Source of the DNA: Synergistaceae bacterium | Lineage (GTDB): Bacteria > Synergistota > Synergistia > Synergistales > Aminobacteriaceae | Length of the DNA stretch: 33,195 bases | Reading direction: 5' to 3' | NCBI GenBank assembly: GCA_031274425.1 | Contig: JAISQE010000122.1 | Coordinates: 1-33,195 of the forward strand | Part shown: positions 2,042 through 33,144 of the stretch, one piece after another | How the letters are laid out: every line of letters begins with the position of its first letter | Numbering within the stretch: position 1 is the first letter of the stretch | The notes under the pieces: model-generated | Databases searched by the model: none | Seen by the model: the letters and a program-made list of their open reading frames with translations, nothing else | What the model was told of the DNA's origin: nothing | Program-made: the position numbers and the translations under genes

Positions 2042-5000
2042 CTACCAGGGTATGCCGACGTACTTGAAGATCGCCCAGTGGCGAGGGGCTTTGAACTCGC
2101 CGCTCAAAAGCGCTAGCTGCGCGTCCCTGAGCGCGTCCACGGGCTCGCGCCCGTCCAGTATTCCTTCGTAGAACTTCGGCATGAATCGAGCGGCGCTTTC
2201 ATCCACGGCCCTCCATCGCGTCAGGATGGTTCCCTTCGCGCCGCCGGCCAGCAGCACCGTCGAGAGCCCGAACATCCCGTCGCCCACGTAGAGGTCGCCA
2301 AGGCCGGTTTCGCAAGCCGAGAGGGTGATCAGGTCGGCGTTCCACCTGACCATGGCCAGCTCGCCCATCTGGAGGAAAGAGTCGTTGCCGTTGTCCCGTA
2401 TCGGCGAGAGGACAAGGCCGGGCTGAAGGTCCGGAATCGCGGTGCGGTCGTAACCGTGGCACGCGATGTGGACGTAGCGATACTTCCCGGGGTCGCTTTC
2501 CCAGAAATCGCTCTCGGACGCGTGAGTGGCCAGCAAAACCAACGGGGCCGAACTCGATTTGCCGTTCCATAGTTTCCTCAGGTCGTCGGCTTCGCTCTGG
2601 GAACCGTCCAGCGGCTTGATGAACTTGCCGAAGTCGTTTTTGACGTTGTAGGCCAGCTCCGACCGCTTCTTCGTCTCGCCAAGGACGTCACCGGACCAGA
2701 GCGACTCTATGTCCCCCATGATTTTTCCGATCCGCTCCTTGTCGGCGCCGGAAAGGGCCGCCTTCAAGTCGACTCCCAGACGTTCCTTCAGCATTTTTTC
2801 GAAGTCGGGGTCCTCATTCAACGCCAAACTCAAAGACGGTCTCCATTCCCTCGGTTTTTGGAGCAGAGGCGCGTAAGACGGGTTCGCCATCAGCAGCAGC
2901 GACCTGTCCTCCGGAGCCCGCGCCTCTCCCTCCCGCGTCAGCAGATAGGCGCTCGGCAGTTCGGCAAAGGTCCAGTCTTCCACCAAATAGCGAGCTTTGC
3001 CGTCGTCGCCTTTTTTTTGAAGAGCTTCCAGCGGAAGCACGTAAAGGATGTCGTGGGGAATGACAAGAATTTTCCTGATATCCCCGCAAGCCGAAGCGAT
3101 CGGCTGGAAAAGCGCCTCCCCCACGTCCTCCGGCGACAGGCCGCACGCGGTGGCGTCCAGCCGTTGTTTGTCATATTCGTTTTTATCCTCGCCTCCGTCA
3201 ACGAGACGCCGCCAGTAGGAATAACCAAAAAGCGAGTCGTAATCCAAGTCGAGCGGAACGACTGCCGCTTCGTCGGAGCGCGTCAGCAATATGGCGAAAG
3301 ACAGCTTCGGCGAGATGTAATAATTGACAAGACCCCAATCGTCCGGCAGCTTGGCCCGAACGGAATCGACGCCGAGAACCTCGTCCAGGTCCACCGTCCT
3401 GCCCCTGGTCAGCTCGACGCGCTCCTCCCGCAGCCGTTTCATCTCGTTGTTGGCCCGCGTCATCTCGTCCCGCTGTCCCGAGGAGCTCGCGCGACGGTAC
3501 GCGCCGTCCAGGGCGACCAGCCGCATCTCTATCTCCCGCACCTTCTCGCGGTCGGCGGGCGGCAGCGCGTTGAGGAACTCGCCGCCGGTGGTCGCCAGAA
3601 GCTCCTTCCAGCGGCGGTTCTTCATGCCCTCGATAAGCTCCCACAGCCGCGCGGCCTTTTTGGCGTCCTTGTCCTTTTCCCAAAGGGCAAAGCCGGAACG
3701 AATCGCCCCTCCGTACATCTCCGCGCGGTCGAAGGCGCTTTGGCTGGTGGTTCCCTCCACAGGGGACACCAGCTCCAGCTTCGCGATCGCCTTGTCGTAC
3801 TGTCGGGCCGCCTCGGCGTAGTCCCCGGTCTTCTCCGCGGCCAGCGCCATGATGGCGTAGGCTCGCCACTGCGTATCGGGCTTCGTTTCGACGTCTTCGC
3901 CGTCCTTGCTCCCCAGCAAAGACAGCAGTTCGCCGGCGGAGGCCTTGGCCGCGTCCCATTTCGACAGCGCGAGGCGTATCCTCCCCTGAAGCTCCAACAT
4001 GGAAAGCCGGTCGTCATACGATATGTTGTCCTTGGAGGCGAGGATTGCGCCTATATTGACGGCCTCGTCGGTCACGTCCATAAGGGCGAGGTTTTCGGCG
4101 ACGGCCCTCAGCCTCTCCGCGCGCTTGGCCGTCGTTTCGGGATCTTCCAGGGTCAGGTCGAACTCCGACGCGAAAGTTTTTGCCGCCTTACCGACGGCAT
4201 CCCCGAAATTAGAGAAAAATTTGACCCAGTCTTTGTCGAGGGCCGGCGAAATTTCCAGCTCCTTCATGACAAGAACGCGCCGCCTCATGTTGGACCAGGC
4301 GTTCAAGTATTTGAGCATCTCGTCTCCGGCGTCGATGGCGGCGAGCATGTAGGCGCTGGTTTTGGGGGCGAGCTCCTTCGCCTCGGAGGCGAGCTGCCGC
4401 TGGCCCGCTTTCTTCAACGACCGATGGGTGCTGTTTAGGACGCGCAGCAGAATTTCCTCGAGTTTTTCTCTTTCCTCTTTCCCTTCCCCCGCAAGCTGTT
4501 TCGCCGCGTCGGAAAAAAGCGTTTTTCTAAGCCGCGTCTTCAAGGCGATCGGCAGCGCTTCCGCGTCGAGCAAGGCCTTTTGAATCGCCCTCGTTTCCTC
4601 GGCGTTGGGGGAAAGGCGCTTGACCATCTCGGCGATGGCTTGCGCATCCGTCTCGATGCCGCTCTTGGCAGGCTGCTGTTGGTCGTTTTCAGGTTCCGGC
4701 GCGTCCGAGTCCAACACGATGCCGCTCATTTGTTGGATCGGCAGGCCGGATTCCGGGAGGGTCAGCGAGTCTCCGCCGGCCAGCGAGCGTAAAAGTTTCG
4801 CGGCGGCGGCGAAGGCCGTTTTTACATAGTCCTCGTCCTTCGCCTCGCCCTTCCTGGCGGACAGCTCCCTGAGCGCCTCGGACGCTTTTCCCGCGAGCTC
4901 GGCGCGTTTTTCGCCTCGGCGCAACGCCGCGTCGCCGATCGACAGGCTGGCGGCGACCTCCTGATAGTAATTGCGAAGTTCCGGCGCGTTGCGCAGAGCG

Positions 5001-6475
5001 ACTTCGCGTATCGTCCGAAAGCCGTCGATACTTGGAATCGGCCTATCGGCCCGCAGGGAGTCCACGGTCTTCCATGCTCTATCAAATCCGCTGTCCCGGA
5101 CACTGTCCCGTTCTTGAGGAGACTTCTTTTTTTTGAGCTGGCGCGCCGTCAGAGCCGCGCGCCACGGCAAACCCTGGGCGGTTCTGTAATCCACCTTGCC
5201 GACCATGCCGAGTTCGTTTCTCAAGTCGCAGTGGTAGATGTCCAGCATCGCCATCAAGACCACGTCCATCTTCTGCGCCTCGAGCCCCTTCGAGAGGGCC
5301 TCCCGATAGTTGGCGGCCGCCTCGCTCCACATCCCAATCTTCTCGTACAACTCCCCGAGCTTCAAGAGGGACTGGGCGACGGAGGTGGGGTTGCCGGCGT
5401 CGACGGCCAGGGAATAAAATGTTTTGAAGTGATCCAGCGCGACGGCATATTTCCCCCTCATGGCCTCCAGAGTGCCGTAAACGTCGTTCACCGCCATGTT
5501 GAGCGCCACGTCTTTGTCGGAGGCCGCGACGGTCAGCAGTTGTTGCAGCTCCCGCTCGGCCTCGCCGAACTCGCCCAGGTACGTCAACGTCAGGGCGTAG
5601 TCCTTTTTCAGATTATCCACGTCAACCGCGGCGGCCCTGTCCGGGTACTTCGACACGATGTCCTCGCCCTTTTCGACGGCTTCGCCTATGGCGTCTTTGG
5701 CCTGGCCGAACGCCCCTGTGGACAGCAGAAACTGCCCCTTGTCCGCCATGGCCAAATAGAGCGCGATATTCTCCGCGTCGCCGGCTTTGGCGGCCTTCGC
5801 CAGCTTGGTCGCGTCGGCGATGACGCTGTCGTAGACGCGAAGGGCCTCGGCCTCGTCGCCGCGGACGCGGCCTATGATGTGCGCCTGTTCGAGCCGCACT
5901 CTCTGCCTGTCGGGCGGGGAGTTTTTGAAGGAGGCCTCGGCGTCTTTGAAGTGTTTTTCAGCCTCGTTCATGAGGCCCGTTTCGATTTTGACGCGCCCGA
6001 GGCCCTCTTGAGCCACGCCTCTGAGGGTGGCGTCTTTGCCGACGAGCTTCAGCTTCAGGCCCCGCTCGTAATACTCCCGCGCCTTGTCCCACGCCATCTC
6101 GTCCAGGTAGAGCTGAGCCGCGTAGAAGAGCGCCCGGCACTCGCCCGAGGCGTTTTTCGCGGCTTTATATTGTTCGGCCGCCTCCTCGAAAGACCGCCGC
6201 GCCGCCTCCTTCTGTCCTATCGACACGAGGCACAGCCCCCCGTTGAAGTAGGATTGACCGGATTTGAGCCTGTTTTTCTCTTTCGCGTACGCCGCCCCGG
6301 CGGCGTCGAAAGCCGAGGCGGCGCTATCCATCTTTCCCTCCTGATACGAGGACACCGCCCTCTTGAACGCCGCGTCCCCGGACTCCGCCGCGTACGAATC
6401 GCCCGAAAAAACGAAAATCAGGGAAACCAGGGAAATAATCGCGATCCACGATAAGAAAATATATTTTTTCGTCAT
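2042..6475 (-). CDS. Exported TPR-CHAT caspase-like protein
   Basis: A 1477-residue protein with a Sec signal peptide (KK, hydrophobic core about residues 5-24, cleavage after SYA near 30), then many TPR-like helical repeats (about 30-430), a long helical middle, a coiled-coil region with more TPRs (about 780-1010) and a C-terminal CHAT domain (about 1090-1477). CHAT is a caspase/separase-related cysteine peptidase fold. The catalytic pair is visible: His1340 in HIACHGYD and Cys1388 in LSACETGLG, followed by the GLSTVLLAGGAKG stretch typical of CHAT. An active, extracytoplasmic peptidase is therefore likely. It is the last of four minus-strand genes for exported proteins; a hairpin with T-run in the 94-bp gap to the preceding TPR gene may give it separate expression. 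Substrate unknown. The Cys and His codons were checked in the DNA. Confidence 0.88.
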   Translation of the reverse strand: MTKKYIFLSWIAIISLVSLIFVFSGDSYAAESGDAAFKRAVSSYQEGKMDSAASAFDAAGAAYAKEKNRLKSGQSYFNGGLCLVSIGQKEAARRSFEEAAEQYKAAKNASGECRALFYAAQLYLDEMAWDKAREYYERGLKLKLVGKDATLRGVAQEGLGRVKIETGLMNEAEKHFKDAEASFKNSPPDRQRVRLEQAHIIGRVRGDEAEALRVYDSVIADATKLAKAAKAGDAENIALYLAMADKGQFLLSTGAFGQAKDAIGEAVEKGEDIVSKYPDRAAAVDVDNLKKDYALTLTYLGEFGEAERELQQLLTVAASDKDVALNMAVNDVYGTLEAMRGKYAVALDHFKTFYSLAVDAGNPTSVAQSLLKLGELYEKIGMWSEAAANYREALSKGLEAQKMDVVLMAMLDIYHCDLRNELGMVGKVDYRTAQGLPWRAALTARQLKKKKSPQERDSVRDSGFDRAWKTVDSLRADRPIPSIDGFRTIREVALRNAPELRNYYQEVAASLSIGDAALRRGEKRAELAGKASEALRELSARKGEAKDEDYVKTAFAAAAKLLRSLAGGDSLTLPESGLPIQQMSGIVLDSDAPEPENDQQQPAKSGIETDAQAIAEMVKRLSPNAEETRAIQKALLDAEALPIALKTRLRKTLFSDAAKQLAGEGKEEREKLEEILLRVLNSTHRSLKKAGQRQLASEAKELAPKTSAYMLAAIDAGDEMLKYLNAWSNMRRRVLVMKELEISPALDKDWVKFFSNFGDAVGKAAKTFASEFDLTLEDPETTAKRAERLRAVAENLALMDVTDEAVNIGAILASKDNISYDDRLSMLELQGRIRLALSKWDAAKASAGELLSLLGSKDGEDVETKPDTQWRAYAIMALAAEKTGDYAEAARQYDKAIAKLELVSPVEGTTSQSAFDRAEMYGGAIRSGFALWEKDKDAKKAARLWELIEGMKNRRWKELLATTGGEFLNALPPADREKVREIEMRLVALDGAYRRASSSGQRDEMTRANNEMKRLREERVELTRGRTVDLDEVLGVDSVRAKLPDDWGLVNYYISPKLSFAILLTRSDEAAVVPLDLDYDSLFGYSYWRRLVDGGEDKNEYDKQRLDATACGLSPEDVGEALFQPIASACGDIRKILVIPHDILYVLPLEALQKKGDDGKARYLVEDWTFAELPSAYLLTREGEARAPEDRSLLLMANPSYAPLLQKPREWRPSLSLALNEDPDFEKMLKERLGVDLKAALSGADKERIGKIMGDIESLWSGDVLGETKKRSELAYNVKNDFGKFIKPLDGSQSEADDLRKLWNGKSSSAPLVLLATHASESDFWESDPGKYRYVHIACHGYDRTAIPDLQPGLVLSPIRDNGNDSFLQMGELAMVRWNADLITLSACETGLGDLYVGDGMFGLSTVLLAGGAKGTILTRWRAVDESAARFMPKFYEGILDGREPVDALRDAQLALLSGEFKAPRHWAIFKYVGIPW

Positions 6476-6569: not shown

Positions 6570-7787
6570 TTAGCGCCGCTTGTTGACCTCTCTTACGTGA
6601 TCGCGGAAAACCAGGAAACCGGGCAGGTCGATGTAACTCACGACTTTCGTCACGTTGCCGCCCTCCGAGGCGCCGATCGTGGCGTTGACCTCCAGCGCGG
6701 CGAAAAATTGGGCCGTGGGAAGCCACATCGCCTCGCCGTGGAGGCCGGAATCGCCGAAGTACTCGTTCTCGCCGAACCTTTCGGTCAAAATGAGCAAACC
6801 CGCGTTGAAGATCTCGTCTCTGAGAGCGAGATTGCCCTTGCGGTTCTCCCAGACGGCGAAAATGTTGACCGCCAGCAGTTTGCCCTGAAACTCCTCCAGA
6901 AAGCAGACCTGCCCGTCGGCGTCGGCGTGGATCATCTCAGGCAGATCCGTAACCGGCATATCGACGAAGTGGAAGCGCACGCCGTATCTCGTTGCCTCAT
7001 CGAACGTACGATACGCGACGCCTCGCTGTTTCAGGCCGTCAAGAACGGACTCTATCGGCTCTCCCAGCTTGAACCCCAGCACCTCGTGCCCGCCATCGCC
7101 GGCTTTCCCCTCGGCCTTGCCCCGCTCCATGACCTTTTCCTGGCGCTCGCCCGCGTCGGACATGGTGGTTTCCTGCGTTTTTCCGGCCTCCGCGGCTTTC
7201 GTCGCCTTTTCCAGAAGGGATCGCGCCGACGCCTCGATGTCGTCCGCGGCGGATTTGTCCTTGGAGGCCAGGCGTCGCAGCGCGTCCTCCGTCGCGGCCG
7301 CGTCGCCCATCGACGCGTAGGCGATAGCGAGGCCCTTCAAGGAGCGGACGACCAGTTCGTCTTCGTCGGGAGAGAGATCGATGGCCTGCGTGAAGGCGCT
7401 TGCCGCCTCTTCGTATCCGCCGGCCCCCAACCAGGTCTCGCCCAATCCGACCTTCACCCATTTGGCCTGATCGCCGGGCAGCAGCAACTCCGCCCGCTCG
7501 AAGCCGTTCTTGGCCGACTCCCAGTCGCCCAGATAACGGTGGCACCAGCTTGCGAAATCGAGGGCCTCGCCGTTTTCCGGCTCCAGCGCCAGCACCTTGT
7601 CGAAGAGGGTGAGGGCGAGATTGTATTCCTTGACGTCGTACAGGTTTTTTGCCCTCTCGAAAAGAGTCGGAGCGGCCTCGGCCGAGAAGGAGAATAATAT
7701 CAGAGAAAATAACGTCAGGGAGAACAACGCCGCCGCGAAGGCGACAGCGGACGCGGCAAACGCGCGGCGCATTATTTTTCTTGCCAT
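6570..7787 (-). CDS. Exported TPR protein of unknown function
   Basis: A 405-residue protein with an N-terminal signal peptide (basic start, long Leu/Phe-rich hydrophobic core, AEA-AP cleavage near residue 39). TPR units cover about residues 40-200 (for example LFERAKNLYDVKEYNLALTLFDKVLALEP and ETWLGAGGYEEAASAFTQAIDLSP), then a Lys/Glu/Gly-rich linker (about 200-235), then a C-terminal globular domain (about 236-405; it begins EVLGFKLGEPIESVLDGLKQRGV and contains ENEYFGDSG) that I do not recognise. It lies 13 bp after the DUF4384 gene and before the CHAT gene, all on the same strand, so a shared envelope function is likely. ATG at 7772 is an alternative start; neither has a strong ribosome-binding site. 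Confidence 0.8.
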   Translation of the reverse strand: MARKIMRRAFAASAVAFAAALFSLTLFSLILFSFSAEAAPTLFERAKNLYDVKEYNLALTLFDKVLALEPENGEALDFASWCHRYLGDWESAKNGFERAELLLPGDQAKWVKVGLGETWLGAGGYEEAASAFTQAIDLSPDEDELVVRSLKGLAIAYASMGDAAATEDALRRLASKDKSAADDIEASARSLLEKATKAAEAGKTQETTMSDAGERQEKVMERGKAEGKAGDGGHEVLGFKLGEPIESVLDGLKQRGVAYRTFDEATRYGVRFHFVDMPVTDLPEMIHADADGQVCFLEEFQGKLLAVNIFAVWENRKGNLALRDEIFNAGLLILTERFGENEYFGDSGLHGEAMWLPTAQFFAALEVNATIGASEGGNVTKVVSYIDLPGFLVFRDHVREVNKRR

Positions 7788-7800
7788 AGCGCGAATCCGG

Positions 7801-8823
7801 CTACTCGTCGTTCTCGACGTTGATGCTGAAGGCCAGTTCCAATTGGGTTCCGTCTTCCAACTCCACTGTCGCTTTTATCGTGTCGACGCCGACGCTCTCC
7901 GCCGCCACAAGTTTCCATTTGTCCTCCTTGCGCGGCAAAATCAGTATCTCGCCGGGAGCGAAGGCGATGTCCGCGTTTTCCGGCAGCAAGTTGTTCGTGT
8001 TTTTCCCAGGGGCCTCGTCGACCAGGGAAACCAGCTTGCCGCCCTTATCGGAAAGTATTTTCACGAACACGCGCTCGCCCACCAGGAAACTCGTGCCGTT
8101 GGCCCAGGCCTTGATCGTCGCGTCCCCATGAGCGGCCACGCCGAAACCGGTCGGGGCGTCGCTCCCGTCCGTGGTCATGACGGCCAGGGAGGCCACGCTC
8201 CACTTGAGCTCCGCCTTGGCCGCTTCTTCTTCCTCATCCACATCCTCCTCGGTGAGCAGGATGTCGCGGGTGGCGCTCTTCGGATCTTTAATCACGCTGA
8301 AGGGCCCGGCCACGTCGTTGTTCTCCTTGTCGAAAACCGGGACGTCGTTGTTCGTGGCGATGGCCTTGATGACGTCTACCCCCACGGGGCCCCCGGCCTT
8401 CATGGAGAACTTCGCCCCCTGGGCCGGGATGCTGATCTCCTCGCCGGCCTTGACGAAGTTGTTCTCGACCCACTTGTTGGGGAAAAGGACGAGGATCTGT
8501 CCGCTGGGCGTAAAATCCAGAACCGTCACGTAGGCGTCGGTGTCGCTCTTGAAGGTGAGCGTTATTTTCTCGCCTATTTTGTAAACCCCGTCCGGCTTGT
8601 CGGACTTGAGGGACATCGTAAAGTCGTCCTTACGCATCTCCTCGACGCCGAGTCCGCCCGGAGTTTCGCCTACGGGCTTCTCCCCGGCGTCTTCCTCGTC
8701 TTCCTCCTCCAGCACGATGTCGCGCGTGGCCGTCGTGGCCCCGAATTTGACTTCAGCCCAAGCCGAAGTCCCCATAGCGAGGCAAAACAACGCCAACAAA
8801 AACGCTACGAAAATCTTTTTCAT
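7801..8823 (-). CDS. Exported protein with two DUF4384-like domains
   Basis: A 340-residue protein with a clear signal peptide (MKK, hydrophobic core, AWA-EV near residue 23). A DUF4384-type Ig-like domain is seen at about residues 67-160 (GEKITLTFKSDTDAYVTVLDF, then ILVLFPN and an end VGVDVIKAIAT). A second, more divergent copy follows at about 225-325 (GERVFVKILSDKGGKLVSLVDE ... NLLPEN ... VGVDTIKATVE). Each copy is preceded by the same acidic linker: ATRDIVLEEEDEED (32-45) and ATRDILLTEEDVDE (184-197). The gene is therefore an internal duplication. DUF4384 domains are known to accompany caspase-like peptidases, which fits the CHAT gene downstream. AAGGGAGG lies 8 bases before the ATG. Confidence 0.82.
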   Translation of the reverse strand: MKKIFVAFLLALFCLAMGTSAWAEVKFGATTATRDIVLEEEDEEDAGEKPVGETPGGLGVEEMRKDDFTMSLKSDKPDGVYKIGEKITLTFKSDTDAYVTVLDFTPSGQILVLFPNKWVENNFVKAGEEISIPAQGAKFSMKAGGPVGVDVIKAIATNNDVPVFDKENNDVAGPFSVIKDPKSATRDILLTEEDVDEEEEAAKAELKWSVASLAVMTTDGSDAPTGFGVAAHGDATIKAWANGTSFLVGERVFVKILSDKGGKLVSLVDEAPGKNTNNLLPENADIAFAPGEILILPRKEDKWKLVAAESVGVDTIKATVELEDGTQLELAFSINVENDE

Positions 8824-10205: not shown

Positions 10206-10253
10206 TTGACAGATTGAGATAATGGCATTACTATGTTTGTCTTGACAAACATA
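10206..10253 (+). promoter_or_regulatory. Strong sigma-70 promoter with perfect 22-bp palindromic operator
   Basis: TTGACA (10206-10211) and TACTAT (10229-10234) are separated by 17 bp. Overlapping the -10 and the expected transcription start is a perfect inverted repeat with arms TATGTTTGTC and GACAAACATA and a TT centre (10232-10253). A dimeric repressor bound here would block RNA polymerase. It drives the ABC-transporter operon that starts at 10278. The promoter is seen in sequence; the regulator's identity is unknown and no regulator gene lies nearby. Confidence 0.75.
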
Positions 10254-10277
10254 ACGAAAAAAGAGGTTTCTTTCTTG

Positions 10278-11054
10278 ATGCGTGGTTGGGGGCGCCGTGT
10301 TCTTTCGGTATCCGGTTTTGTGCTTCTGTTGTTGTTATGGCATTGGGGCAGCGCTCGACCTGGGTGGAATCATTTTCTGTTTCCAGCGCCCCTTCTGGTG
10401 TTGCGAAGAATGGCGAGTCTCTTGAGCGGCGGGGTTTTGGCGAGACACCTGTCCGCAAGCCTCATGCGCGTGTTTTCCGGTTTCGGCATTTCCGTGCTGG
10501 TGGCTTTTCCCATGGGCATCGCCCTGGCTTTGGTTCCCGTTTTTTCCCTGCTGGCGCGTCCTCTTTTGAATTTTGCCCGCCAAATTCCCCCTCTGGCGGT
10601 GGTGCCCCTTCTGATTCTGGGGCTGGGGATCGGGGAGGCGTCCAGGATCGCCGTCGTCGTCATGGCCAGTTTTTTTCCCATACTGCTCAACGCGGAAAAC
10701 GGCATACTGCACGTGGACCGGCGGCTCCTGGAGGTCGGCAAGACGCTTTCGTTTTCGCGCTGGGCTCTCTTTCGCCGCATCGCCTTTCCAGCCTTCTTTC
10801 CCTACTTTTTCGTGGGCGTCCGCCTGGCCCTGTCCTACAGTTGGAGGTCTCTCATCGGCGCGGAGATCGTGGCGGCGTCCTCCGGCATCGGGTATATGAT
10901 CCGGGAGGCGGAGACCCTGTCGCGGTCGGATACGATCATCTGCGGCGTTCTTGTGCTGGGGTGCGTCGGCGCTTTTTCCGATTTCCTGCTGGCGACGGTC
11001 TCCGCTCGCCTCTTCCCGTGGAGCCGATCGGGCGAGCAGGCTCAAGGTTTTTGA
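10278..11054 (+). CDS. ABC transporter permease, nitrate/sulfonate/taurine type (SsuC/TauC-like)
   Basis: A 258-residue inner-membrane permease of the BPD_transp_1 family with about six membrane helices. Family marks are the N-terminal FPAPLLVLRRM segment (FPsP in SsuC/TauC proteins), ARQIPPLAVVPLLILGLGIGEASRI, and the ATPase-coupling (EAA) loop EVGKTLSFSRWALFRRIAFPAFFPYFFVGVRLALSYSWRSLIGAEI. I start it at the ATG at 10278, after AAGAGG at 10261-10266, because the longer frame beginning at 10233 would start inside the operator and -10 box. It is the first gene of the operon; the ATPase gene follows 12 bp later. The substrate cannot be read from a permease; the family carries sulfonates, nitrate, thiamine precursors and others. 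Confidence 0.9.
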   Translation: MRGWGRRVLSVSGFVLLLLLWHWGSARPGWNHFLFPAPLLVLRRMASLLSGGVLARHLSASLMRVFSGFGISVLVAFPMGIALALVPVFSLLARPLLNFARQIPPLAVVPLLILGLGIGEASRIAVVVMASFFPILLNAENGILHVDRRLLEVGKTLSFSRWALFRRIAFPAFFPYFFVGVRLALSYSWRSLIGAEIVAASSGIGYMIREAETLSRSDTIICGVLVLGCVGAFSDFLLATVSARLFPWSRSGEQAQGF

Positions 11055-11066
11055 CGGTGTGACGGC

Positions 11067-11774
11067 ATGGTTCGCGTCGAAAACCTGACGAAAATTTACG
11101 AGATGGAGAACGGACCCGTGACGGCGCTGCGGGGCGTTTCCCTGCATTTGCCCGCCGGCTCCTTCGTGGCGCTGTTGGGCAAGAGCGGGTGCGGGAAGAC
11201 GACGCTCCTGCGGCTGATCGCCGGGTTGGAAAGCCCTTCCGAAGGGGAGGTGTTCTGCTCCGCCCCCCGGGCCAACGTGGGGTACGTTTTTCAAGAAGCG
11301 CGCCTCATGCCGTGGCTTTCCGTGGCCGACAACATCCGTTTCGCGGAGTGGAGCGGAAGGGAACGGGAGACCTTGGGCGACCTGGAGGGGATTTTGCGGA
11401 CGCTGGGGTTGTCCGAGTTCGCCGGGGCTTTTCCCCACGAGCTTTCCGGCGGCATGGCCCAGCGCGTCGCCTTGGGGAGGACGCTCTTTTGCAAGCCGCA
11501 CTTGATATTGATGGACGAGCCCTTCGGGGCTTTGGACTGGTTCACGCGCAAGGCGCTGCAGGGCGATCTGCTGCGGTTGTGGCAGGAAGGAGGGAAGACC
11601 GTTTTATTCGTCACCCACGACATCGACGAGGCGCTCCTGCTTGCCGACCACGTGGTCGTGCTGCGCGAAGGGGAGGTGATCGATCGATTCCAAGTCGAGC
11701 GGCCCCACCCGAGAAATTCCGCGGAACTCTACTCCCTTCGCGAACGGATTCTTTTTTCGATCGAAGGAGTTTGA
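11067..11774 (+). CDS. ABC transporter ATPase, nitrate/sulfonate/taurine type (SsuB/TauB-like)
   Basis: A 235-residue cytoplasmic ATPase that powers the preceding permease. All nucleotide-binding motifs are intact: Walker A GKSGCGKTT (about residues 38-46), Q-loop in YVFQEARLMPW, signature LSGGMAQR, Walker B LILMDEPFGALD and the switch histidine in FVTHDIDEA. The Q-loop QEARLMPW and DEPFGALD-WFTRK stretches are typical of the SsuB/TauB/NrtD branch. The ribosome-binding site is weak (GGTGTGACGG), so translation may be coupled to the permease gene 12 bp upstream. Length is normal for the family. Confidence 0.93.
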   Translation: MVRVENLTKIYEMENGPVTALRGVSLHLPAGSFVALLGKSGCGKTTLLRLIAGLESPSEGEVFCSAPRANVGYVFQEARLMPWLSVADNIRFAEWSGRERETLGDLEGILRTLGLSEFAGAFPHELSGGMAQRVALGRTLFCKPHLILMDEPFGALDWFTRKALQGDLLRLWQEGGKTVLFVTHDIDEALLLADHVVVLREGEVIDRFQVERPHPRNSAELYSLRERILFSIEGV

Positions 11775-11816: not shown

Positions 11817-12758
11817 ATGAAAAAATTGGTTGCGTCGAGCTTTTTGATCCTCACGTTCGTTTTGGCGGCGTTTTCCGCGCTTCCGGCGGGGGCCGGCGAG
11901 AAACCCTTCGCCGTCACCTACGTGAAATCCCCTCTGAACATCCCCTCCATCGTGGAGAAACGCCTGGGGCTTTTGGAGGCCGAGTTCGGCCCTCTGGGCT
12001 ACACGCTTTCCCATCCCGAAATAACCTCCGGGGCGCAGCAGACCCAGGCGATGGCGGCGGGCTCGGTGCAGGTAGCCAACTGCATCGGAGGGACGTCTCT
12101 TTTGCTGGCGGCCTCTCAGGGGCTGGACATCAAGATCGCGGGGATTTATTCGAGAGCGCCTAAAACCTATTCTCTGTTGGTGAAGGATCCCGCCATCAAA
12201 ACCATCGGCGATTTGAAGGGAAAGAAGGTCGCGGGCCCCAAGGGAACGGTGCTGCACCAGTTGTTGCTGGCGGGGCTGAAGAAGGCGGAGGTGTCGCCTC
12301 TGGACGTGGAGCACATCGAGATGCCGATCCCCACGGCCACGGCCGCCCTGATGAGCGGCTCCATCGACGGGGCCCTGGCGGCCGGGCCGGCGGCCCTCAA
12401 AGCCATAGAGGGCGGCGCGCGGGTGCTCTTCGACGGCGAGGGGCTGATCGAGGCGACGATCCTGATCGGCGTCAGCGCGCAAGCCCTAGAGGAGCTGCCC
12501 GACCTTCCGCGGAGGATGCTGGACGTCCACCGGAAAGCCCTGGCCTACGCCGCGGAGAACCCGGAGGAAACCACGAAGATCGTCAGCGAGGAAACGGAGA
12601 TCGGCCCCGAGCAGGTAAAGGAAATGGCGAAGCTCTACGACTTCGACCCCGAGATCCGGGAGCGGGACATCAAGGACCTGGAGAGCACGATGCAGTTTCT
12701 CATCGACGCGGAGCTCGCCGTGAAGTACGTGGACCCCGCGTCGTTGATCGTGCGCTGA
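11817..12758 (+). CDS. ABC transporter substrate-binding protein, SsuA/NMT1 family
   Basis: A 313-residue exported binding protein. It has a signal peptide (MKK, hydrophobic core, cleavage near AGA-GE at about residue 27) and the order of motifs of the SsuA/ThiY/NMT1 group: EKRLGLLEAEFGPLGYTLSHPEITSGAQQTQAMAAGSVQVANCIGG, IAGIYSRAPKTYSLLV, IGDLKGKKVAGPKGTVLHQLL and LMSGSIDGALAAGPAA. These proteins capture small anions or heterocycles in the periplasm for the permease. No lipobox is seen. GGAGGA lies 9 bases before the ATG, a stronger ribosome-binding site than in the two genes before it, which fits the usual excess of binding protein. The substrate is unknown. Confidence 0.88.
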   Translation: MKKLVASSFLILTFVLAAFSALPAGAGEKPFAVTYVKSPLNIPSIVEKRLGLLEAEFGPLGYTLSHPEITSGAQQTQAMAAGSVQVANCIGGTSLLLAASQGLDIKIAGIYSRAPKTYSLLVKDPAIKTIGDLKGKKVAGPKGTVLHQLLLAGLKKAEVSPLDVEHIEMPIPTATAALMSGSIDGALAAGPAALKAIEGGARVLFDGEGLIEATILIGVSAQALEELPDLPRRMLDVHRKALAYAAENPEETTKIVSEETEIGPEQVKEMAKLYDFDPEIRERDIKDLESTMQFLIDAELAVKYVDPASLIVR

Positions 12759-12775: not shown

Positions 12776-13882
12776 ATGGGGGATACGACAATCGCGTTTC
12801 GCGCCGAGGGGGTTTTGCTGCAAACCGACTACGACGACATCTCGGCCTATCACGGAGGGCGCTATCCGGCGGGAACGGCCTTGGGGCAAAAAGCCCTGCG
12901 ATTGGCCCATTCTCTTTTGTTCCCCGACGGAGGGGCCTTCGTGCGCGGAAAATGTTCCGTGGAAACCCCTTTTTCCGGAAAGGGCTTCGAGGACGCCATA
13001 GAAATGGCCCTGCGGTGCACGTCGCTGAACCGCTACAAGCTCGATCTGAACATGCCCGTCCCCGAGGGGACCGTGCCGGCCCCCGTCAGGGGAAAGTTCT
13101 TCTACCGGTTCTCTCAGGAGGACGGCTGCGTGGAACTGGCCCTGAAACCAGGGCTGGTTCCCGAGGAATTTTACAAGGTCTCCGAGGACCTGCATTTCAA
13201 GAGGGTTCCGCCGGAGGCCGAAGAACAGGCCATGCGGCTCCGCCGGAAGATAGAGGCCGCGCTATTGGCCCTGGACCCCGCCGACATTTTTGACGTCCGC
13301 AAACACAAACCCTGCACCGTCTTCCCCGACGACAAGCCCTTCGGGCCCCCGGACCTGAAGGACGATTTCCGCCTCCGCCTTCTCGATTACGGGGAGTACG
13401 AGGTGGGGATCGAACAGCTTCGGCGCTACCACGGGAACGCGTCTTTGTGCGGTCTTTGCCTGTCCTGGTCGCTGGTCCGGCAGTGGGCGGGGGCGAGCGT
13501 GCCGCGCAGGTCCGTCCAGGTCGTCTCCGGCGCTTTGGGAGACGGGATAGCGGACGCCTTCGAGTTCCTGTTTCGGGGAGCGGACGGACGGGTCGTCGTC
13601 GACACGGCCTGGGGCGACGGGACCTCCGCGCCGAAGGTCATGCCGGGCAGCGGGGCCTTCGCCTTTAGGCTGGGGCTCGCCTCATCGGGGTTCGCCCCAG
13701 CGCGGCCCCCTCGGACTTTCGTCCTCAAAGAAAAGGCCGTCCCGAAGGAGTACCTGAAGCTTTGCGGAATCAAGAACGAAAACCCCAAGGAATTCAAGGA
13801 AGAAAAAGCGCGCAAAACCCTGCAGTTGGAGTTTGCGCGCCGCGTTCTGGCGGACCCTGAGCCCTTCGAGGCGTACGACTGA
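12776..13882 (+). CDS. Unrecognised protein, possibly a duplicated divergent FmdE-like protein
   Basis: A 368-residue soluble protein, last gene of the ABC operon, 17 bp after the binding-protein gene, with no clear ribosome-binding site. I see two half-repeats. The first has DDISAYHGGRYPAGTALGQKAL (residues 20-41; YHG at 25-27) and EDAIEMALRCT (72-82); the second has LRRYHGNASLCGLCLSWSLV (215-234; YHG at 218-220) and ADAFEFLFRG (259-268). This resembles the FmdE family pattern FHGHxCPGxxxGxRA followed by DAIQxxTGCT and a downstream KP segment (here ELALKPGLVPEE). The usual metal-binding His-x-Cys after HG is not kept. FmdE is a remote, motif-level assignment. Whatever it is, co-transcription with the importer suggests it handles the imported compound. 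Confidence 0.5.
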   Translation: MGDTTIAFRAEGVLLQTDYDDISAYHGGRYPAGTALGQKALRLAHSLLFPDGGAFVRGKCSVETPFSGKGFEDAIEMALRCTSLNRYKLDLNMPVPEGTVPAPVRGKFFYRFSQEDGCVELALKPGLVPEEFYKVSEDLHFKRVPPEAEEQAMRLRRKIEAALLALDPADIFDVRKHKPCTVFPDDKPFGPPDLKDDFRLRLLDYGEYEVGIEQLRRYHGNASLCGLCLSWSLVRQWAGASVPRRSVQVVSGALGDGIADAFEFLFRGADGRVVVDTAWGDGTSAPKVMPGSGAFAFRLGLASSGFAPARPPRTFVLKEKAVPKEYLKLCGIKNENPKEFKEEKARKTLQLEFARRVLADPEPFEAYD

Positions 13883-13900: not shown

Positions 13901-13947
13901 AAAAGCGCGTCCCTACATGAGCGTGTGTGAGGGCGCGCTTATTTTTT
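13901..13947 (+). terminator. Intrinsic terminator of the ABC/FmdE-like operon
   Basis: AAGCGCGTCCCT (13903-13914) pairs with AGGGCGCGCTT (13930-13940) with one bulged base, and the stem runs directly into TTATTTTTT. It lies 19 bp after the last stop codon and is the clearest intrinsic terminator in the window. Confidence 0.8.
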
Positions 13948-14063: not shown

Positions 14064-14708
14064 ATGAAAACAGGAAGGAGAATATTGAAACTGCTGTGGA
14101 TACTGGTTTCCATTGTTGTTGTGTTGGTCGGATGGTTCATTTGGAGCGCGCATCGGGTTCCCATCCAGAGAGCCGCGAGGACATTCTCTGCCCCTGCCAT
14201 GCGGTATGATCTGGGAAAGGTGCTGGTCGTCTATTATTCTTCAACTGGAAATACCGCTGAGGCGGCGCAGAGAATCTGCGCGATGACGAATGGATCGCTT
14301 CTGGAGATTGAAACGCAGGAGCCCTATCCCGCTGCGCCTATGTTGTTCGTCAGAGCAAAATTGGATCAGAGCAACAGCAAGTACCCCGTGCTAAAAACAG
14401 CCCTGCCCGATTTTGCCGCTTACGATGTCATTTTCGTCGGTTCCCCCGTTTGGTGGTCTTCAATCGCGCTTCCGATGCTCTCCCTTCTCTCGCACAGTGA
14501 TTTCGGCGGCAAAACCGTAATTCCTTTCTGCACTCAGGGAGGGGGTTCCGGAGACTTTTTTCTGCGCTTCGCTCGCGAAGCCCGAAATGCAAAACTTGCA
14601 GAAGGGATAGCGTTCTCCGGGGTGTCGAAAATAGCTCCTTCCGATCTTGACCAGAAGATTTCATCATGGTTAAGTGCTATTGCTCTCAAGGCATCTCGTA
14701 GTCCATGA
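14064..14708 (+). CDS. Membrane-anchored flavodoxin
   Basis: A 214-residue protein with an N-terminal transmembrane helix (about residues 8-28) and a flavodoxin domain (about 50-205). The FMN phosphate loop is VVYYSSTGNTAEAA (about 55-68), and the second flavin loop is FVGSPVWWSSIALPMLS with the ring-stacking Trp pair; FCTQGGGSG follows. This matches the flavodoxin_4 type, usually an electron carrier or NAD(P)H-linked reductase partner. AAGGAG lies before the ATG. A possible TATACT (14016-14021) has only a weak -35 at a 19-bp distance. The DNA is less GC-rich than its neighbours and the 3' end overlaps degraded foreign genes by 23 bp on the other strand, which suggests arrival by transfer or a rearrangement breakpoint here. 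Confidence 0.88.
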   Translation: MKTGRRILKLLWILVSIVVVLVGWFIWSAHRVPIQRAARTFSAPAMRYDLGKVLVVYYSSTGNTAEAAQRICAMTNGSLLEIETQEPYPAAPMLFVRAKLDQSNSKYPVLKTALPDFAAYDVIFVGSPVWWSSIALPMLSLLSHSDFGGKTVIPFCTQGGGSGDFFLRFAREARNAKLAEGIAFSGVSKIAPSDLDQKISSWLSAIALKASRSP

Positions 14709-24498: not shown

Positions 24499-24528
24499 AT
24501 GATTTTAGTTTATATGATTTTAGTTTGT
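24499..24528. repeat. 15-bp tandem duplication at the oppF end
   Basis: ATGATTTTAGTTTAT (24499-24513) and ATGATTTTAGTTTGT (24514-24528) differ at one position. The oppF stop codon lies in the first unit, so the duplication changed the C-terminal residues or the gap to ridA. It is AT-rich in a GC-rich neighbourhood. Confidence 0.6.
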
Positions 24529-25514
24529 GCGGTTTCATAGAGATGACAGGCCACCCAGTGACCTCCCCCCATATCCCTCAGCTCCGGGAGCCGGTTCGAG
24601 CAGGGCTCCGCCGCCCTGGGGCATCTCGGGTGGAACGCGCAGCCCTCGGGCGGGTTCAGCGGGCTGGGAACGTCGCCGGAGAGGATAAACCGCGTTCTTT
24701 CGCGCAGGGGATCGGGTTCGGGCACGGAGGCCAGAAGCGCGTGGGTGTAAGGGTGCAGAGGGCGCTCGAAAAAGTCGTCCTTTTTGCCTATTTCGACGAT
24801 GCGCCCCAGGTACATCACCGCCACCCTGTCGCTGATATGGCGGACGACGCTGAGGTCGTGGGCGATGAAAAGATACGTCAGTTTGAAGCGCGACCGCATC
24901 TCCATCAAAAGATTGATCACCTGAGCCTGCACGGAGACGTCCAGGGCCGAAACCGGTTCGTCCGCCACGATCAGAGAGGGCCGCAAGATCAGCGCCCGCG
25001 CGATGCCGATGCGCTGCCTCTGCCCGCCGCTGAACTCGAACGCGTAACGCCGCAGATAGGACGTGTCGAGCCCGACGGCCTCCAGCATTTCCGCGACGCG
25101 TTCGAGTCTCTCCGGCGCGCTTTTGACGCCGTGCGCTCGAAGCGGTTCTTCCACGATCCGCCCCACCGTCATGCGGGGGTCCAGGGAGGCGTAGGGGTCC
25201 TGAAATATCATCTGGAACCCCTGCCGCGCTTTCCTCAGTTCCTCGCCCTTCAGGGAGAGCAGCTCCGAGCCGCGAAAAAAAACGCTTCCCGACGTGGCCG
25301 GCAACAGGCGAAGAAGGACTTTGCCGGTGGTGGATTTGCCGCATCCGGACTCCCCCACCAGCCCCAGGGTCTCCCCTTCGGCTATGGAAAACGTCACGTC
25401 GTCTACGGCCTTGACCGAGCTCCGCGTCCGGCGCGGACGCAGGCGCAAAAATCCCTCCCTCACCGGGAAGTGCTTCTTCAGGTTTCGCACCCGCAGGAAA
25501 ATTTCATCGCTCAA
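24510..25514 (-). CDS. oppF: Oligopeptide/dipeptide ABC transporter ATPase F
   Basis: A 334-residue ATPase, one of the two that drive peptide uptake. Motifs: Walker A GESGCGKST, Q-loop MIFQDPYASLDPRMTV, signature FSGGQRQRIGIARAL, Walker B LIVADEPVSALD, switch His in FIAHDLSVV, and the C-terminal oligopeptide domain with GCAFHPRCPRAAEPC, whose cysteines may bind an iron-sulfur cluster as in DppD/DppF studied elsewhere. The start is a TTG that overlaps the oppD stop (TTGA), with GGGAGG 8 bases upstream. The long N-terminal basic segment (LRLRPRRTRSS) before VKAVDDVTF is usual for OppF/DppF. Last transporter gene of the operon. Confidence 0.93.
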   Translation of the reverse strand: MSDEIFLRVRNLKKHFPVREGFLRLRPRRTRSSVKAVDDVTFSIAEGETLGLVGESGCGKSTTGKVLLRLLPATSGSVFFRGSELLSLKGEELRKARQGFQMIFQDPYASLDPRMTVGRIVEEPLRAHGVKSAPERLERVAEMLEAVGLDTSYLRRYAFEFSGGQRQRIGIARALILRPSLIVADEPVSALDVSVQAQVINLLMEMRSRFKLTYLFIAHDLSVVRHISDRVAVMYLGRIVEIGKKDDFFERPLHPYTHALLASVPEPDPLRERTRFILSGDVPSPLNPPEGCAFHPRCPRAAEPCSNRLPELRDMGGGHWVACHLYETAQTKII

Positions 25515-26533
25515 CGCGAACGCCTCCCATCGTAAAACAGCCCCTCATAAAACAGCCAGCACCTCACGCTGTGGCCCCGCCACGTCTCAAAGATCGGGGG
25601 CTCCTCGATCTCGCAGCGGGTCTGGCGAAAAGAGCATCGATTGGCGAACTTGCAGCCGGGAGGAAGGTCCTGGAGCGTCGGAACCATCCCCGGTATGGCC
25701 TTCAGCTCTTTGTCCGCGCCCCGCATACGGGGAATGGAGTCTAAGAGTCCGCGCGTGTAGGGATGGGACGGAGCGCCGAAAAGCTCTCGGGTCGGAGCCT
25801 CCTCCAGAATTCTGCCCGCGTACATCACGGCGATCTTGTCGGCGTTCTCGGCGACCAGCCCCATGTTGTGCGTGACCAGCAGCACGGACATCCCGAAGTC
25901 GCGCTTCAAATCCTCCATCAAGTAGAGAATCTGGGCCTGTATGGTGACATCCAGCGCCGTGGTGGGCTCGTCCGCTATCAGCAGCTCGGGGCGCAGAACA
26001 AGGGCCATCGCGATCATGACCCGCTGCCTCATCCCGCCGCTCAGAAGATGGGGGTAGGCGTCCGCGCGTTTTTCGGGGCTGGGAATGCCGACTTTGGCCA
26101 GCATGTCCACGGCCCTCTTCCGGGCCTGGGCTTTCGTGATCCGCTCGTGGGCGCGGACGGCCTCGGCGATCTGATCTCCCACCGTGTAAACCGGATTCAA
26201 AGAGGTCATCGGGTCCTGAAAGATCATGGATATATTCTTGCCCCTGATTGCCGTCAGCTCGTCGTTTTCAAGGCCGACGAGTTCTCTGCCCTTGAACTTT
26301 ATGGAGCCGGCCGCGATTTTCCCGTGAGGTTGGGGCAGAAGTCCCATCAACGCCAGAGAGGTCATGGATTTTCCGCTCCCGGACTCCCCCACGAGCCCCA
26401 GGGTCTCTCCCGGCAGTATCCGCAGATTCACGCCGTCCACGGGCCATATCTTGCCCTTTTCGGAGGGGAAACTCACGCGCAATCCCTCGATGGAGACCAG
26501 GGCCTCGACGGCCTCGCTTTTCGCGCCGCTCAG
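25511..26533 (-). CDS. oppD: Oligopeptide/dipeptide ABC transporter ATPase D (start uncertain)
   Basis: The partner ATPase: Walker [13 protein letters not shown]-loop [16 protein letters not shown], signature [15 protein letters not shown], Walker [13 protein letters not shown], switch His in LVTHNMGLV and a C-terminal Cys-containing [15 protein letters not shown]. The start is a problem. The first ATG/GTG/TTG in frame is a TTG at 26482 giving LRVSF, which would cut off the first beta strand; the homologous text [10 protein letters not shown] begins upstream. Between the oppC stop (26537) and 26482 only CTG codons can start: 26533 (behind GAGGGGG) or 26500. I give 26533 as the outer limit. 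A CTG start or a sequencing error are both possible. It overlaps oppF by 4 bp. Confidence 0.85.
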
Positions 26534-26536
26534 GGA

Positions 26537-27373
26537 TCACACCCCCTCGATGTTGCGTTGAAGCTGGGGATCCAGCCTGTCGCGCAACACGTCTCCGGCC
26601 AGGTTGAAGGACAACACGGTCATCACGATAAAAGCTCCGGGGAATATCAGGAGCCACGGCGCTCGGGTGAGATACATTCTCCCCTCGCTCAGCATGTTGC
26701 CCCAGCTTGGAACGGCCGGCGGGATCCCCAGCCCCAGAAAATCCAGGGCGGCCAGATCCAGCAGGGAAAAAGCGAAGGTGAACGTGGCCTGCACGATGAT
26801 CGGCGACAACATGTTGGGGATCACGTGCCGCGTGACGATGGCGAACTGCCTGACGCCCGAGGCCACCGCCGCCTCGATGTAGGGTTCCTCCCGGATCTTG
26901 AGGGTGAGGGCGTAGGCCACTCGGACGGTTCGCGTCAAATAAGTGACCCCCACGGCGACGATCACGTTCAACATGCCTCGCCCCAATATGGAAACCAAAA
27001 CGAGCGCCAGCAAAAGGGGAGGAAACGCCATCATGACGTCGACCAGGCGCATCAGCCAGGCCTCGGTCCTTCTGAAGTAGCCCGCCACGGCTCCGATGAG
27101 GACCCCCAAGACGGTGGAGAAGAGGACGACGCCCGATCCCCCCGTCAGACTGGTTCGCGCGCCGTACACCACGCGGCTGAAGACGTCCCGGCCGAAGTTG
27201 TCCGTCCCGAACAGGTGCGCTCCGCCCGGAGGCGACAATTTGTTTGCCGGATTCAGGTCCTGAGGCGGGATGCGGGCCATGAGGGGCGCCGCGAGGGCGA
27301 CGGCGAGCAGGAGCCCGATGAAAAGAAAGCCGATCAGCGCGACTTTGCGCTTGAGGAAGAAGCCCAGCTTCAT
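26537..27373 (-). CDS. oppC: Oligopeptide/dipeptide ABC transporter permease C
   Basis: A 278-residue inner-membrane permease with an N-terminal helix after FLKRKVALIGFLFIGLLLAVALAAPLMA, the DppC/OppC hallmark ANKLSPPGGAHLFGTDNFGRDVFSRVVYGARTSL, and the coupling loop VRVAYALTLKIREEPYIEAAVASGVRQFAIVTRHVIPNMLSPIIV. The C-terminal FLGLGIPPAVPSWGNMLSEGR is also typical. It begins 10 bp after oppB with AGAGG upstream, so both are translated from one message. Confidence 0.94.
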   Translation of the reverse strand: MKLGFFLKRKVALIGFLFIGLLLAVALAAPLMARIPPQDLNPANKLSPPGGAHLFGTDNFGRDVFSRVVYGARTSLTGGSGVVLFSTVLGVLIGAVAGYFRRTEAWLMRLVDVMMAFPPLLLALVLVSILGRGMLNVIVAVGVTYLTRTVRVAYALTLKIREEPYIEAAVASGVRQFAIVTRHVIPNMLSPIIVQATFTFAFSLLDLAALDFLGLGIPPAVPSWGNMLSEGRMYLTRAPWLLIFPGAFIVMTVLSFNLAGDVLRDRLDPQLQRNIEGV

Positions 27374-27383
27374 CCGCCGGCCT

Positions 27384-28331
27384 CTAGCTGTATCGGATTC
27401 GCGGATCTAAAAACGCGAAGGAAAGGTCCACAAGGAGGTTGATGATCATGTAGAGGAACGCCACCACCAGGATGACGCCTTGGATCGTCGGATAATCCCG
27501 CCTCAGAAGCGACTCCACAACTAGGCGTCCGACGCCTGGAAGCGAAAAAACGGTTTCCGTGACGACGGTTCCGGCGACCAGCGCGACAAAAGTGAACCCC
27601 AGCGCGGAAACGACGGCTATCAGGGCATTCCGAAAAACATGTTTCACGTTGACGGCCCCCTCCGAAAGCCCCTTGGCCCTCGCCGTCTTGACGTAGTCCG
27701 CGTGGGAAACGTCCAACATGCTGGATCGGGTCAGGCGAACGATGAGCGCGCTGTTGGGGGCGGACAACGTGACGGCGGGAAGCACGAGGTAGCGCAAGTT
27801 CGTCCAGTCCCCGGACGCCAGAACGGACGGGAAACCCGACGTCGGAAACCATTTCAGGGTCACGGAAAAAAGCATCATAAAATTCAGGCCCAGCCAGAAG
27901 GTCGGTATCGACGCGAAAAACATGGACAAGGCCGACGCGGCCTGGTCCAGCTTGCTGTTGTAGCGGACCGCGGACAGGACCCCCACCGGAACGCCGATGC
28001 CGACGATGAGGACTAGGGACATCGCCGCCAAAAACAAACTGGTCTCCGCTCTGTCGAGAATGACGCTCCACACGGGCTGCTGGAAAAAGACGGACGTGCC
28101 GAAATCCCCTTTCAGGATCCCGCTGAGCCAGATGAAATACTGAGCGTAAACGGGACGATCCAGCCCCATGGCCTCCCGAAGCTCCTGAACCTGTTCGGGG
28201 GTCGCCATGTCCCCCAGCATCATCTGGGCGGGGTCGCCGGGAATCATGTGAATAAAGGAGAACACGATGACGGACGCCAGCAAAAGAGATGGGATCATAC
28301 TCAAAAGCCGTCTCACGATGTAAGCGAACAT
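27384..28331 (-). CDS. oppB: Oligopeptide/dipeptide ABC transporter permease B
   Basis: A 315-residue inner-membrane permease. The N-terminus MFAYIVRRLLSMIPSLLLASVIVFSFIHMIPGDPAQMMLG is diagnostic of OppB/DppB, as are YFIWLSGILKGDFGTSVFFQQPV, the RLTRSSMLDVSHADYVKTARAKGLSEGAVNVKHVFRNAL coupling loop and the C-terminal FAFLDPRIRYS. I use the ATG at 28331 because GCGGGGGG lies about 6 bases before it and the family begins here; the frame runs 10 codons further without such support. It is separated from the binding-protein gene by a hairpin repeat. Confidence 0.94.
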   Translation of the reverse strand: MFAYIVRRLLSMIPSLLLASVIVFSFIHMIPGDPAQMMLGDMATPEQVQELREAMGLDRPVYAQYFIWLSGILKGDFGTSVFFQQPVWSVILDRAETSLFLAAMSLVLIVGIGVPVGVLSAVRYNSKLDQAASALSMFFASIPTFWLGLNFMMLFSVTLKWFPTSGFPSVLASGDWTNLRYLVLPAVTLSAPNSALIVRLTRSSMLDVSHADYVKTARAKGLSEGAVNVKHVFRNALIAVVSALGFTFVALVAGTVVTETVFSLPGVGRLVVESLLRRDYPTIQGVILVVAFLYMIINLLVDLSFAFLDPRIRYS

Positions 28332-28365
28332 GGAATACCCCCCGCGACGTAAAACATCCAAGCTC

Positions 28366-28384
28366 AGGGGGACGGAGCCCCCCG
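28366..28384. repeat. GC-rich palindromic intergenic element, copy D
   Basis: CAGGGGG-ACGGAG-CCCCCCG lies between the binding-protein gene and oppB. On the minus strand it forms a hairpin in the transcript. It is followed by an AT-rich patch with a second palindrome AAGTTT-T-AAACTT (28393-28405). A hairpin here could protect the binding-protein mRNA or cut read-through into the permeases. Confidence 0.65.
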
Positions 28385-28432
28385 AAGCGCTTTAAGTTTT
28401 AAACTTTAGGCTTTGAACTTTAACGTTTACGA

Positions 28433-33066: not shown

Positions 33067-33144
33067 ATCGGGTAGAAGGCCGCTCATTAGTTGGGCGGCC
33101 GACCTCCCACACCACCGTACGTACGGTTCCGTATACGGCGGTTC
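33067..33144 (-). mobile_element. 3' end of a group II intron (domains V and VI)
   Basis: On the minus strand GAACCGCCGTATACGG-AACCGTACGTACGGTGGTG is the compact hairpin of group II domain V (33109-33144), followed by GGAGGTC and a domain VI hairpin GGCCGC...GCGGCC (33078-33100) with an ACTAAT stretch that can hold the branch A. It ends CTACCCGAT near 33067, like known bacterial introns. The intron body lies to the right, outside the window. The 5' end and exon-binding sites cannot be seen. Confidence 0.8.

Follow-up and report, generated by a model that had tools for sequence, protein, structure and literature searches.

The gene at positions 12776..13882 (+) of the window, i.e., the whole 33,195-nucleotide stretch of Synergistaceae DNA analysed here, is predicted to encode two FmdE-fold (PF02663) domains fused head to tail, and it closes a four-gene unit whose other members specify an SsuABC-type importer. 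FmdE-like proteins of this type form a separate, unnamed family related to FmdE, and the FmdE-like domain recurs beside importers of several classes. We consider it rather probable that the fused protein acts in the cytosol as a pseudo-dimer and takes over what the importer delivers, which may be a metal complex.

The open frame specifies 368 residues and begins 17 bp 3' of the binding-protein gene. The earlier note had described two half-repeats, each with a YHG followed by a DAxE, and placed these motifs exactly: YHG lies at residues 25-27 and 218-220, DAIE at 73-76 and DAFE at 260-263. The double pattern arose in none of 5000 sequence shuffles. Compared as single sequences, the halves give a weak alignment whose score was reached by 28 of 2000 shuffles; once nine homologues per half are used, their profiles match at 98.3% (hhalign, E 1.2e-14) and the halves are, on this comparison, clearly homologous, so that the half-repeats stand. 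In profile comparisons each half is matched, too, by single-domain relatives, including one encoded in the same genome (hhalign 99.9%, E 3.8e-32 for the N half; 99.2%, E 1.4e-19 for the C half), and the single-domain protein L019 matches the N half at E 3e-21 and the C half at E 7e-12 by single-sequence tblastn. The N domain (12776..13342, +) keeps His26-Gly27 and Tyr30-Pro31, and the C domain (13343..13879, +) has an invariant Cys225-Gly226 where the conserved His is expected. Charged residues are invariant in both halves (Asp73/Glu76/Arg80 and Asp260/Glu263/Arg267) in the nine-sequence alignments, which omit L072 and L074, both cut by contig ends.

The AlphaFold2 model of the whole protein (16 rows; m8aa7430e2e17) has a pLDDT of 92.8 and a pTM of 0.90, and Foldseek returned chains of 2gvi and 2glz as its only convincing solved structures. 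With VIA-align, this model matched 2glz_A over residues 14-180 (Z 12.7, 138 aligned, rmsd 3.5), followed by 2gvi (Z 11.1), 3d00 (Z 9.8) and the next unrelated entry (4.8), the FmdE matches all falling within residues 1-187, i.e., the N half. The C half modelled alone (me359f86b5cd9; pLDDT 83.3) matched 2glz_B (Z 11.0, 131 aligned, rmsd 2.9), 2gvi (Z 9.8) and 3d00 (Z 9.5), with the next unrelated entry at 4.6. Because the Z scores to 2glz, 2gvi and 3d00 stand far above the next entries, both halves are predicted to adopt the FmdE core alpha+beta fold, these being predicted models and not crystal structures. At the level of sequence, the single protein gave no match at E 1 among solved structures, and the resemblance emerged only when structures were compared. 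The protein had been read earlier as an FmdE-like double-domain one, and neither a different fold nor unrelated halves were found: each half is modelled with the FmdE fold, and the halves are homologous.

The PF02663 gathering score of 22.9 bits is missed by the whole protein (15.8) and by the N half (17.7), and no match to this model was found for the C half or for any of six full-length homologues. The N-half profile is related to canonical FmdE of Synergistota (hhalign 95.6%, E 1.1e-8), no such relationship was found by profile comparison for the C half alone, and a profile of 22 wider-family domains, all of which share one Arg, a G-x-G, a D-x-x-E and a Gly further on, matches canonical FmdE at 98.0% (E 3.1e-13). 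In the tree, canonical FmdE and the FmdE-like family split with a support of 100, at a point where long branches meet.

According to Axelrod et al. 2010 (PMC2954224), FmdE core domains are homodimers with ligand-sized clefts formed by two subunits, and their metal ligands are His15, His17, Cys19 and Cys55 (2glz numbering). In the profile alignment the N half keeps His26 at these places, followed by Gly28, Tyr30 and no Cys; the earlier remark that the metal ligands are partly lost can thus be sharpened to one of four left, in the N half. At the first ligand place of the C half, the His of the second YHG is kept in only six of nine homologues and is Ala in the other three (L016, L017 and L018). 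Because three of the four ligands are absent, metal binding at an FmdE-type site is doubtful. Of the second FmdE motif, Asp58/Gln61/Thr67, the Asp is kept as Asp73 and the Gln has become Glu76, invariant in all nine sequences, with Arg80 and Ser83 following in place of the FmdE TGCT. In the sequence after each half there is no Cys4 knuckle of a C-terminal treble-clef zinc finger; the same source gives this finger for 98 of 146 PF02663 members. It also reports that most PF02663 genes adjoin metal-ion transporters, that 13 of 208 adjoin formylmethanofuran dehydrogenase, and that the structures of FmdE-like proteins are known and their job is not.

The importer genes precede the double-domain gene on the same strand. 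A permease of the TauC/SsuC/NrtB type occupies 10233..11054 (+; PF00528, 78 bits), and upstream of the unit lies a sigma-70-like promoter at 10206..10234 (+; TTGACA, 17, TACTAT; 10/12, a consensus match only). Because this promoter-like site overlaps the mechanical start at 10233, the permease probably begins at the ATG at 10278 (MRGWGRRVLS...), a start region shared with L014. Next come an ATPase of the SsuB/TauB/NrtC type at 11067..11774 (+; PF00005, 111.5 bits), whose best NCBIfam model, PRK11247, scores 193 bits against a cut-off of 395, and an SsuA/NMT1-type binding protein with an N-terminal signal-like stretch at 11817..12758 (+; PF09084, 66.2 bits), which scores 146.4 bits against the 163.5 required by TIGR01728 (SsuA_fam). 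With all three Pfam domains over cut-off in one unit, the importer is of the SsuABC type; the permease falls below the equivalog cut-offs of TauC, SsuC, NrtB and SaoP, and none of the three proteins reaches the equivalog scores for SsuA/SsuB/SsuC or TauA/TauB/TauC. The genes are 12, 42 and 17 bp apart; in four relatives the corresponding gaps measure from -4 to 32 bp. A terminator-like hairpin followed by a T run at 13917..13942 (+; a consensus match only, with 10 such sites found vs. 6.5 expected in shuffles) marks the end of the four-gene unit, before a flavodoxin-like gene at 14064.

Elsewhere in the window, the minus strand carries genes for a CHAT-domain/TPR protein of 1477 residues (2042-6475) and a DUF4384 protein (7801-8823), and a TPR protein is encoded between these two (6570-7787). 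The minus strand also has a complete oligopeptide/dipeptide importer by Pfam (24510-29974; two ATPases, two permeases and a family-5 binding protein) and, at the window edge, a group II intron end (33067-33143; Rfam RF00029, 46 bits).

Among 185 Synergistota genomes, 14 were matched by a seven-sequence profile. The double-domain gene is present in ten (G000, G001, G013, G019, G037, G063, G080, G154, G156 with two copies, and G162); G002, G017 and G030 have single-domain relatives only, G000 and G001 have both kinds, and G169 was dropped as a member, its match being weak (49 residues, 20 bits). A peptide-pattern search of genome contigs with alignment A3 matched 53 stretches and confirmed eight loci, all in Synergistaceae/Synergistales records; the same search with the single protein, and a search of viral contigs, gave no matches. 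In all nine loci checkable by contig (the window, L013-L018, L071 and L072), permease, ATPase, binding-protein and FmdE-like genes follow one another on one strand, so that the tie to an SsuABC-type importer proposed from the window alone holds throughout, and it is seen again in Azospirillum as well as on a plasmid of E. coli. No riboswitch was found at the operon in eight loci scanned, those detected lying elsewhere. Two further contigs are partial: that of L074 starts inside the double-domain gene, and the 5.5-kb contig of L073 has an intact FmdE-like gene and an internally shortened binding protein, with neither permease nor ATPase found on it. The shortened L073 gene (3352-3936) has a large in-frame loss, which reflects either gene decay or misassembly.

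In a tree of the domains, all nine N halves group together, as do all nine C halves (bootstrap/SH-aLRT 98/95 each). Because each half type is a single clade, a single duplication or fusion that predates the divergence of these genomes would suffice, and the sequences fit one old event of this kind. The single-domain genes of Synergistota are followed by a BtuF-like binding-protein gene in all five loci, and BtuC- and BtuD-like genes are also present in four, the fifth contig ending first. Canonical FmdE genes occur in L084 and L085, where an operon link was rejected since an opposite-strand gene lies between. In L102 (1455-7574), an operon contains a NitT/Ssu-like binding protein, permease, ATPase, NifH-like protein and an FmdE protein that, on a reading of the sequence alone, is apparently fused to a zinc finger and a MobA-like domain.

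Single-domain relatives also occur on plasmids, in 34 records by tblastn with the window protein and in 39 with the Proteus relative as query; those of Proteobacteria and Paenibacillus were reached only by tblastn on plasmids. In 11 of 12 annotated plasmid neighbourhoods (a set that includes the near-identical copies L154 and L159, and to which the Microvirga and Rhizobium WYJ-E13 records, unannotated at this place, do not belong), importer genes adjoin the FmdE-like gene or share a gene run with it, the exception being Sphingopyxis, where a truncated copy sits among transposases. The neighbours are FecBCD-type importers in Proteus (on two almost identical plasmids, one of them truncated where its record begins), Martelella, Rhizobium (two), Agrobacterium, Methylosinus and Methylocystis, and a NikA-annotated importer lies near the gene in a Paracoccaceae bacterium. 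In Paenibacillus, where only open reading frames were available, two other genes and then an apparent oligopeptide-/nickel-type importer come after the gene, and in the Vibrio relative L168 no importer was seen, by eye, among the listed neighbouring frames. Our literature search for FmdE with transporters found no paper on these links.

SsuABC-type importers accompany single-domain genes as well. Azospirillum thermophilum has the same gene order as the window, with identities to the window's permease, ATPase and binding protein of 45%, 47% and 37%; plasmid pECOED of E. coli ED1a has FmdE-like genes both before and after an SsuABC-type permease, ATPase and binding protein (42%, 40% and 32%), and this unit is found in 5 of 5426 E. 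coli genomes, always on plasmids. When the pECOED genes A and B were considered as direct counterparts of the N and C halves, the best tree did not group them so, and AU tests did not reject such a grouping (p 0.15 and 0.14).

In 5 of the 12 plasmid neighbourhoods, the FmdE-like gene runs straight into phnGHIJ and two ABC genes of C-P lyase. Five loci (L154, L155, L158, L159 and L165) carry a mobile operon of LysR, FecB-like binding protein, FecCD permease, ATPase, FmdE-like protein, phnGHIJ and two ABC-type genes, hosted by plasmids of Proteus, Martelella, Rhizobium and Agrobacterium, in which a C-P lyase is tied to a siderophore-type importer. Plasmids of Morganella and Klebsiella, too, are on record as carrying the FmdE-like gene, and nearly identical units of the Proteus type occur in 3 of 5426 E. 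coli genomes, all plasmid-borne; a literature search that paired C-P lyase with FecCD yielded no paper describing the link. In alphaproteobacteria, the stretch between importer and FmdE-like gene encodes two uncharacterised proteins, related to each other and each about 200 residues long (L156 5765-6996, L162 4698-6008, L165 1016-2326, L167 4701-5956 and L161 4789-5993). The pair is fused to 436 residues in Rhizobium and Agrobacterium, and no Pfam model matched the two Methylosinus proteins.

The importer itself has a wider distribution. With an E value of 1e-50 or better as our chosen cut-off, the orthologous binding protein is present in 51 of 185 Synergistota genomes, in most of which the importer orthologues occur without the FmdE-like gene; the importer therefore does not need that gene everywhere. 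An SsuA-like binding protein, with or without permease and ATPase, occurs inside [FeFe]-hydrogenase structural and maturation clusters of this phylum. The order is TM1266, binding protein, HydF, with no adjacent permease or ATPase, in L140, L146, L147, L150 and L151; HydF, HydE-like, permease, ATPase, binding protein in L137; and HydF then importer in L149. Importer genes lie within HydA-like/HydG-like clusters in L134, L136 and L139, and beside a hydrogenase gene in L153. Models confirmed HydF, TM1266 and group A6 hydrogenase in L146, L152 and L153, and HydE and HydG at importer loci were read from sequences. By coordinates, 21 genomes have the binding protein no more than about 5 kb from HydF, although in three of these only a piece of HydF is present there. 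Counting contig-end fragments, HydF is present in 44 of 51 genomes with the binding protein vs. 57 of 134 without it (Fisher p 5e-8, relatedness ignored). A literature search for an SsuA-like importer with [FeFe]-hydrogenase genes in Synergistota found no paper, and the passages of PMC3543383 consulted show no such binding protein beside HydF.

The double-domain lineage departs from this pattern. Seven genomes have the binding protein and lack HydF: five of them, among which is that of the window, carry the double-domain gene, and the other two are incomplete. By coordinates, no binding-protein gene linked to a double-domain gene lies near HydF, and the binding proteins so paired form one clade in a tree of 35 (92/95). 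Because neither HydF over cut-off nor HydG nor Fe_hyd_lg_C was found in the window's genome (92.9% complete), its unit serves no hydrogenase there unless the missing 7% hides one.

How the fused protein might work can be set out as follows. The four genes would form one uptake unit, in which a small compound would be captured by the SsuA-like binding protein on the outer side of the membrane and then imported through the permease with its ATPase. The FmdE-like protein, because its N-terminus has no signal-like stretch, would stay in the cytosol and there receive the cargo. Because FmdE cores work as homodimers and two diverged copies are fused here, the two halves of the protein most likely pack against each other to give a pseudo-dimer. 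The HGxxYPxG loop is kept in one half and modified in the other, and a single asymmetric pocket may lie between them. Our best guess at the cargo would be a metal complex or metal-binding organic compound that the protein binds, unloads or hands on. We favour a cytosolic receiver because the family extends the pattern of FmdE beside metal transporters to several importer classes and to a fused pair. Counting against it are the absence of three of the four FmdE metal ligands, the many orthologous importers that lack the FmdE-like gene, the incomplete importer of L073 and the absence of an importer from view in the Vibrio relative, as well as the importer type: the compounds known to be carried by SsuABC-type importers are sulfonates, taurine, nitrate and the like, and not metal complexes.

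That the pocket between the two domains instead belongs to an enzyme, which chemically alters the imported compound (e.g., by cleaving or dealkylating it), is unlikely. The Asp, Glu and Arg invariant in both halves, and the Arg, G-x-G and D-x-x-E invariant across 22 domains, could be catalytic in such a protein, and the position of a single-domain relative between importer and C-P lyase genes in five plasmid regions is one that a processing step could occupy. These residues may, however, simply hold the dimer together, as Asp58/Gln61/Thr67 is located at the FmdE dimer interface (PMC2954224). PhnJ, moreover, is present in none of the ten double-domain genomes; among the 13 genomes searched it is absent from 12, the window's included, and present in G002 only. 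We know of no FmdE relative with proven enzyme activity. A regulatory protein, one that would respond to cargo inside the cell by controlling transcription or the ATPase, is decidedly unlikely: Axelrod et al. (PMC2954224) proposed a regulatory role for FmdE proteins with zinc fingers, and the gene sits inside the importer unit in all checkable loci, but neither a zinc finger nor a DNA-binding domain was found in the sequence, and the alphaproteobacterial and Proteus single-domain relatives have their own LysR gene nearby, so that a regulator is already present at those loci.

It is very improbable that the importer feeds [FeFe]-hydrogenase maturation and that the FmdE-like protein is a hydrogenase-assembly factor; the proximity of orthologous binding proteins to HydF and the enrichment of HydF in genomes that have them speak for this role, but half of the double-domain genomes (five of ten) lack HydF, the linked binding-protein genes lie away from it, and the window's genome lacks the hydrogenase markers named above. 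We give next to no credence to a canonical FmdE that serves a molybdenum/tungsten formylmethanofuran dehydrogenase as its subunit or chaperone. The fold is shared, but membership in canonical FmdE is ruled out by the PF02663 score, the lost metal ligands and the gene context: no formylmethanofuran dehydrogenase genes were found among the window proteins scanned, and the neighbours are those of an importer. The dehydrogenase is therefore not a relevant context for this gene.

The cytosolic-receiver reading can be extended to a broader model, which we regard as unlikely. In that model, the unnamed FmdE-fold branch would be widespread and serve as cytosolic receiver for several unrelated importer classes (SsuABC, FecBCD/BtuFCD and perhaps NikABC), and the fused pair of the window's lineage would take the place of an earlier connection between the importer and [FeFe]-hydrogenase assembly, such that metallocofactor building is provided with a small precursor or metal complex by importer and receiver acting jointly. 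Three natural systems are at hand for finding the cargo, i.e., the fused pair with its importer, the two-gene version of the E. coli plasmid and the version linked to C-P lyase, and in all three, assays of what the binding protein binds could identify it. Linkage of an SsuA-like importer family to [FeFe]-hydrogenase genes in Synergistota is a second outcome of the analysis.

Compared with known systems, the window protein resembles FmdE (2glz, 2gvi and 3d00) in its core fold, HG loop, DAx[Q/E] position and tendency to adjoin transporters, but it falls below the family cut-off, its His-His-Cys-Cys site is reduced to one His, Gln61 is replaced by Glu, the TGCT..GKGN motif and zinc finger are missing, and its two fused domains belong to their own clade. 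The Syntrophus aciditrophicus protein 3d00 similarly lacks two metal ligands and has a metal-free core domain (PMC2954224), but it is a single core domain plus zinc finger, and it fits the window protein less well than does 2glz (Z 9.8 vs. 12.7). The importer shares its permease, ATPase and binding-protein families with SsuABC, TauABC and NrtABC; it differs in that its proteins fall below the equivalog and subfamily cut-offs and that SsuD/SsuE and TauD were not seen beside them in the window. The [FeFe]-hydrogenase clusters with an SsuA-like binding protein have an orthologous one, at 40-56% identity, but those loci are without an FmdE-like gene, and the binding proteins that accompany the double-domain gene group in a clade of their own. 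The unnamed single-domain relatives (WP_019282989.1 of Proteus plasmids, the pECOED pair and the Synergistota singles) share the family signature, about 30% identity to the N half and a position beside ABC importers; unlike the window protein, they have one domain per gene, and they accompany FecBCD/BtuFCD importers or stand as two separate genes around an SsuABC-type importer.
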